A stretch of DNA of 64,000 nt from Saccopteryx bilineata (taxonomy: Eukaryota > Chordata > Mammalia > Chiroptera > Emballonuridae): contig NC_089493.1 in assembly GCF_036850765.1 (NCBI RefSeq), positions 296,738,849 to 296,802,848 of the forward strand. The letters run 5' to 3'. Of this stretch, positions 43,586 through 44,678 are shown piece after piece. Within the stretch, counting starts at the first letter, position 1; every line of letters begins with the position of its first letter. A model generated the notes under the pieces. The model did not search any database, had not been told where the DNA came from, and saw only the letters and a program-made list of their open reading frames with translations. The position numbers and the translations under genes were made by a program.

Positions 43586-44546
43586 TGCGCCAGGCATGGA
43601 TACAAGCTCCCACATGGCCTCTCAGAGCTTCTACCAGAAAGTGGAGATGATTACACTTACTTCATCAAGTTAAGGGGATTATTGTCTCTATCTTAAAAAA
43701 AAAAAAATTCACACCGTTCTCTCAATACCTAAAATAGTGCCTAGCACAATATATATAGTACAAAAAACAGCTGAGTGAACGAGTAGATGCGAAACCTCAA
43801 CCCAGAGCCTCACTGAGCACCGTCCACAGGGCGGGACTCACCGCTGGGACCACATGGGCACCGGAGAACAGACAGGGGCTGTGACCCACGTGGGAGCCAG
43901 TGGCTGGAAGCCACCAGAGGCCAAGCTGTGGCTCAGCAGGGAGTCTGGTGGCCACAGGGGTCCTGCATGGCCTTGGGCACAGCAAACTTCCCCCAACAGT
44001 GAGGGGCTCAACACACAGGAAGGGACGAGGGACAGTTGCAGCTAAAGGAGGTGGGGGCAGTGCTAGAGCAGACAGGTGCCTTAGGGCCACGGCTAGGCGC
44101 ATCTATGTGGCACCTGAACTCGAACTTGTCCTGTCAGCCAATCAAAAAAAGCAGAGGCAACTTCAAAGCGCTCCAGCTACTGGAGGGAGCGACAGAGGTC
44201 ACAGAGGACACAAGACAAAGCGAGGGCCCCGGGGCCAACAGTCTCAAGGCCCGGCTTCTTTCTGGTCACCTCTCACCCCCCAGAACAAGGCACCTCCCTT
44301 CTGAGTCACCGGTTCCAACTCTGTTCCAGGCCGCGCTGGCCCTCCGTGAGTCGGGTCAGTCCCTCCTTGCAAGGACCTCGCCATCCACTCCCATCCGGTG
44401 GTCTTCTCGACGGCCCAGCCCACCAGGAGGTGTCGTCCCCGCCTAGGAAACAGGTCAAGGCAGCCAGGGACCAGAGGGGACGGCCACCTGGGTCCAGCTG
44501 GTGTCCAAGACCCTGATTCTCATTCACACGTAAGAGCAGCCGGGTC

Positions 44547-44557
44547 TGGTGCAGCGG
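44547..44557 (+). promoter_or_regulatory. A box of the intron-1 MIR
   Basis: TGGTGCAGCGG; complete match to TRGYNNARNNG. Confidence 0.75.
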
Positions 44558-44591
44558 GCAAGAGCCCGGACTGCGGAGCAGAACTGCACGG

Positions 44592-44600
44592 GTTCAAGTC
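44592..44600 (+). promoter_or_regulatory. B box of the intron-1 MIR
   Basis: GTTCAAGTC; complete match to GWTCRANNC. Confidence 0.75.
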
Positions 44601-44672
44601 CCGCGTGTGCCGCCCGAGAACACGCCCGCCTGCCCCGGGGCTGCGCGGCCCGCGTGCCCGCCGCTCTCGTTC

Positions 44673-44678
44673 TTTTTT
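44673..44678 (+). terminator. T6 Pol III terminator of the intron-1 MIR unit
   Basis: TTTTTT within CGTTCTTTTTTCGC, in an otherwise G/C-rich island where a T run is unexpected. Confidence 0.7.

Follow-up and report, generated by a model that had tools for sequence, protein, structure and literature searches.

The first intron predicted for POLR3E in the bat Saccopteryx bilineata carries, on the opposite strand, a sequence with the layout of a type 2 Pol III gene, namely an A box, a B box and a T run downstream. As POLR3E encodes a subunit of Pol III itself (RPC5), the locus raises the question of whether this sequence is a Pol III unit acting on the gene that harbors it or the remains of a SINE in which the promoter boxes happen to have survived. 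The question was examined in a window of 64,000 nucleotides, which is the whole stretch of DNA that was analyzed, and all coordinates given are positions within it. We conclude that the element (44533-44678, plus strand) very probably corresponds, as its orthologue, to the MIR already published from intron 1 of POLR3E, a Pol III unit slowing Pol II on POLR3E.

POLR3E and the antisense unit in its predicted first intron

Using a working human RPC5 sequence as a tblastn query, 19 collinear rows with E values of up to 0.009 were obtained on the minus strand, running from 39242 down to 14636; eight further rows from the same search were scattered and had E values of 2.9 to 9.0. The coding sequence starts with the ATG at 39242, and for two of the exon pieces PDB searches gave chains named DNA-directed RNA polymerase III subunit RPC5, with E values of 1.3e-30 and 3.1e-91. 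Exon 1 is apparently noncoding and has a GTGAGT donor at its end (45427/45426), while the acceptor terminates at 39280. The limits of intron 1 are a prediction from these splice signals, read by eye and not from a transcript.

14636..39242, minus strand: POLR3E (RPC5) coding exons (tblastn rows and PDB RPC5 matches)
39280..45426, minus strand: predicted POLR3E intron 1, 6147 bp (both splice sites read by eye: GTGAGT donor, CTCTCCCTGCAG acceptor)

The MIR-like unit is on the plus strand and so lies antisense within predicted intron 1, with a distance of 748 bases from the predicted exon 1 donor to its T6 run. The RPC5 tblastn rows, the PDB matches and the predicted splice signals together bear out the preliminary description of this DNA, which had been made from the letters alone and had placed the element antisense in intron 1 of POLR3E. 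The motif scan for the boxes used working consensus sequences, TRGYNNANNNG for the A box and GGTTCRANNCC for the B box, and located the following features.

44547..44557, plus strand: A box TGGTGCAGCGG (zero mismatches to TRGYNNANNNG)
44591..44601, plus strand: B box GGTTCAAGTCC (zero mismatches to GGTTCRANNCC)
44673..44678, plus strand: T6 run 71 bases past the B box, probably a terminator for Pol III (motif scan; outside recognizable MIR similarity)

Both boxes had previously been described as free of mismatches, the B box within the narrower limits of 44592 to 44600, and the scan agreed. The distance of 45 bp given for them holds from start to start with that nine-base B box, but the true gap is 33 bp with the 11-base box definitions used here. 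The T6 run was found where it had been described, and it is the sole T run of at least five on the plus strand of the region from 44300 to 45700. The surroundings had also been called C/G rich, which fits a GC content of 0.71 and a CpG observed/expected ratio of 1.03 in the element. Box, box and T run thus follow one another in this order and in antisense orientation to an identified gene. A further Pol III unit was identified upstream of exon 1.

45767..45848, minus strand: gene for tRNA-Leu(AAG), lying upstream of exon 1 of POLR3E (ARAGORN; Rfam 57.3 bits; T5 run 22 bases past the B box)

As this tRNA gene, with its T5 run, lies on the other side of exon 1, the POLR3E promoter region is flanked by two Pol III units.

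Assignment of the element to MIR

Working consensus sequences of MIR and MIRb were used for all comparisons in this section, and local alignment to them defined the repeat.

44533..44611, plus strand: tRNA-related part of a MIR/MIRb-like repeat, antisense to POLR3E (local alignment to the MIR and MIRb consensus sequences)

Within this interval, 59 bases (44553-44611) align to MIR without gaps at a score of 25.0, where none of 300 shuffles scored above 17.5, and the alignment to MIRb starts at 44533. When the whole window was scanned for MIR in 150-base tiles, the element ranked first and was followed by the tRNA-Leu gene at 19.0. Its z scores were 12.7 against MIR and 11.4 against MIRb, and at best 4.6 against the ten other units of the window with paired A and B boxes; on these scores the alternatives to a MIR, a Ves-type SINE and a tRNA pseudogene, were rejected. 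The element was detected by full local alignment, unlike in seed-based BLASTN, where it was absent from the 14 rows returned for the MIR query (word size of 7, E values up to 1).

Past 44612, similarity to the core and tail of the repeat gave a score of 10.0, which was equalled or exceeded by 51 of 500 shuffles for MIR and 78 of 500 for MIRb. The missing core and tail are likely due to decay or deletion. As they are unrecognizable, it is the tRNA-related part, together with the published position, that justifies the label "MIR", and, because the similarity ends with that part, the T6 run cannot be assigned to the MIR. Elsewhere in the window, one other MIR copy (28193-28112, minus strand) retains the box region, and both of its boxes were judged by eye to be lost. 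The earlier statement that the other MIR fragments had lost their boxes was not confirmed in that form: it rests on this copy, the sole one with a box region, and the remaining non-tRNA-type MIR matches fall in the MIR core or tail.

Other Pol III-like units and SINEs of the window

Intact boxes are not unique to the element within the window, and this candidate distinction was rejected: 11 pairs of A and B boxes were found in the whole window, against a mean of 0.09 in 100 shuffles. The A-box motif alone was uninformative, with 114 occurrences compared with 124.45 expected. Eight of the 11 pairs sit inside matches to two tRNA-type SINE families, and the remaining three are the element, the tRNA-Leu gene and a unit near 48567. 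A T run of at least five within 200 bases was present in only two of the 11, the element (T6) and the tRNA-Leu gene (T5), with a T4 run in two more. A looser B box raised the number of pairs in the window to 14 and gave a third pair with a T5 run, at 55768. The pair at 48567-48635 (minus strand) has a gap of 47 and a T4 run 83 bases on; it lies outside both of the SINE families matched and could be due to chance.

The first of the tRNA-type SINE families has 14 matches including the query, among them 1926-2030, 4611-4704, 53782-53878, 57272-57362, 58872-58965 and 60811-60904. Four of its copies (at 1944, 4629, 12551 and 58877) exceed the Rfam tRNA gathering score and would therefore be false tRNA calls. 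The second family, which we take to be Ves-like, has 12 matches including the query, among them 50561-50668, 55683-55781, 10197-10295 and 9044-9144, and finishes around 50440 in (CT)n sequence with an AATAAA-like tail. Two reports place SINEs of the Ves type in yangochiropteran bats (PMC8466645, PMC4436864), and the presence of Ves-like copies suggests a bat of that clade as the likely source of the window.

Preservation of the boxes and the published POLR3E MIR

One alternative to a functional unit is a passive relic that Pol III uses rarely if at all, its boxes having survived by luck or because mutation is locally biased in this CpG-rich sequence. No pair of A and B boxes with a gap of 28 to 40, on either strand, arose in 2,000 dinucleotide shuffles of 44300-45700, but plus-strand T runs of at least five appeared in 99 of the 2,000, and a T run is to that extent compatible with a relic. 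The preliminary description held that only the parts needed by Pol III had remained exact, which was contradicted by the alignment to the MIR consensus: identity was 6/11 in the A box and 9/11 in the B box, together 15/22, and 22/33 in the spacer, so that raw identity is no higher in the boxes than in the spacer, as a relic would have it. Relative to the MIRb consensus, each box carries two differences. However, every box change from MIR falls at a degenerate position of the Pol III consensus. Calculated from working consensus sequences, with transitions assumed to make up two thirds of the changes and for one sequence chosen for having boxes, the chance that all changes would be tolerated by the Pol III consensus is 0.026 for the A box and 0.043 for the B box with a MIR ancestor, jointly about 0.001. 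For a MIRb ancestor it is 0.31 × 0.042, or about 0.013. The choice of the case for its boxes and the ease with which the A box fits by chance from MIRb (0.31 of cases) both count toward passive survival. In neutral simulations on the same basis, with 0.30 to 0.35 changes per site, both boxes still fitted in 0.4 to 1.0% of runs, although this rose to 2.4 to 2.5% at 0.25 and 5.6% at 0.20; the spacer differs at 11/33 positions. The claim of the preliminary description that the element is under selection thus finds modest support, not proof, in these chances from a single sequence. As the site is also reported to be occupied in mouse and human (PMC5358760), passive survival appears unlikely.

The POLR3E MIR is a studied case, a Pol III unit restraining the Pol II gene for one of Pol III's own subunits. 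Yeganeh et al. 2017 (PMC5358760) reported Pol III occupancy and box-dependent transcription of the MIR in mouse Polr3e, with occupancy in human as well, at a high level described as unlike that of most SINEs. In all mammals that its authors examined, including the bat Eptesicus fuscus, they noted a MIR in antisense whose A and B boxes are potentially functional. In reporter constructs, the antisense MIR cut expression by 20 to 30% given intact boxes, while the sense orientation did not. Deletion of the MIR in mouse ES cells increased Polr3e mRNA and also, in one line, the protein almost 1.5-fold, and abolished the Pol II pile-up; the effect acts in cis (PMC5358760). The mouse findings given in the preliminary description, occupancy by Pol III and a rise in Polr3e on loss of the MIR, are therefore those of the published account. 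Depletion of Pol III has been found to give more Pol II signal at the MIR, and depletion of Pol II more Pol III binding (PMC9703767), and a review terms the influence of Pol III on POLR3E corroborated (PMC11346459).

The copy in this window has the parts needed by the published mechanism. By analogy with the mouse and human work, TFIIIC would bind the A and B boxes of the element, and TFIIIB would then recruit Pol III to the MIR. Pol III would transcribe a short plus-strand RNA of about 140 nt, stopping at the T6 run, and would run head-on against Pol II arriving from the POLR3E promoter; Pol II would be slowed and POLR3E output would be modestly lower. For this bat, occupancy by Pol III, transcription of the element and interference with Pol II are inferred from that work. 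Gene identity, the antisense position in the intron, the MIR z score of 12.7, the intact pair of boxes with T6 and the upstream tRNA-Leu gene were counted in favor of this explanation. Against it were counted the box identity no higher than that of the spacer, the unrecognized MIR core and the gap between the boxes, together with two published observations described below, on Pol III products after MIR deletion and on regenerating liver.

Those observations bear on the feedback loop that the preliminary description had proposed, in which Pol III activity limits its own subunit, an idea put forward as a hypothesis by Yeganeh et al. (PMC5358760). For the loop to close, a shortage of RPC5 would in turn have to reduce Pol III output. 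The arm leading from Pol III activity to POLR3E mRNA is supported in HEK293 cells, where POLR3B-variant and La-knockdown cells had less MIR RNA and more POLR3E mRNA, the rise being weaker for one clone and for one of two siRNAs (PMC10896340). However, in the mouse ES cell results as reported, 5S, pre-tRNA Ile and U6 were not raised by MIR deletion (PMC5358760), and in regenerating mouse liver Polr3e mRNA and Pol III transcription increase together (PMC6393285).

The element might instead be an enhancer or boundary for POLR3E bound by TFIIIC or a zinc-finger protein, with Pol III transcription incidental. A passing statement that the MIR was shown to be a POLR3E enhancer, and the finding of ZSCAN5B bound there (PMC5340127), point this way, but Polr3e goes up, not down, when mouse ES cells lose the MIR (PMC5358760) and a T6 terminator is present at the element here, which makes such a role very improbable. 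That the antisense RNA is itself active, either in trans or by way of its structure, can be given hardly any credence: the unit is indeed predicted to yield a short RNA ending at a definite position, but this RNA folds no better than shuffles (z score of 0.25, with 115 of 200 shuffles at least as stable), Rfam gave no match inside the element at E values up to 5, and overexpressed MIR RNA was reported to leave Polr3e unchanged in mouse ES cells (PMC5358760). Conserved RNA structure as the thing kept was rejected, being supported neither by folding energy nor by Rfam. The lone nearby Rfam match, to mir-150 (E value of 4), is outside the element at 44450-44477.

Returning to a Pol III unit that slows Pol II, we tentatively suggest, with slightly more doubt than confidence, that the MIR here may be a trimmed Pol III gene, in which the tRNA-derived promoter was kept, the SINE core dissolved and the T6 run arose outside the recognizable MIR, such that selection would keep the act of Pol III transcription and not the RNA. 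The element is a real and correctly recognized instance of a published mammalian element and is already known. A literature search on the element in bats, judged by titles and the beginnings of abstracts, gave no paper on that subject. No new principle follows, because the published account (PMC5358760) already covers conservation across the mammals its authors examined, an example from a bat and the idea of feedback. What a further genome contributes is one data point on which parts persist, namely boxes that fit the consensus and a T run, and on which do not, namely the SINE core.

Among known systems, Ves-type SINEs are likewise tRNA-derived, have A and B boxes and are present in several copies in the window, but the element reaches a z score of at most 4.6 against the window's other units with paired boxes and 12.7 against MIR. 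MIR SINEs in general share with it a 5' part of tRNA origin that carries A and B boxes in the working consensus, whereas the core and tail that belong to the family are unrecognizable here. The closest likeness is to the published Polr3e/POLR3E MIR (PMC5358760). The boxes are 25 to 26 bp apart there and 33 bp apart here, perhaps owing to different box definitions, while gene, intron, antisense orientation and type 2 Pol III promoter are the same, and a tRNA-Leu gene lies upstream in the published mouse locus as it does in this window.
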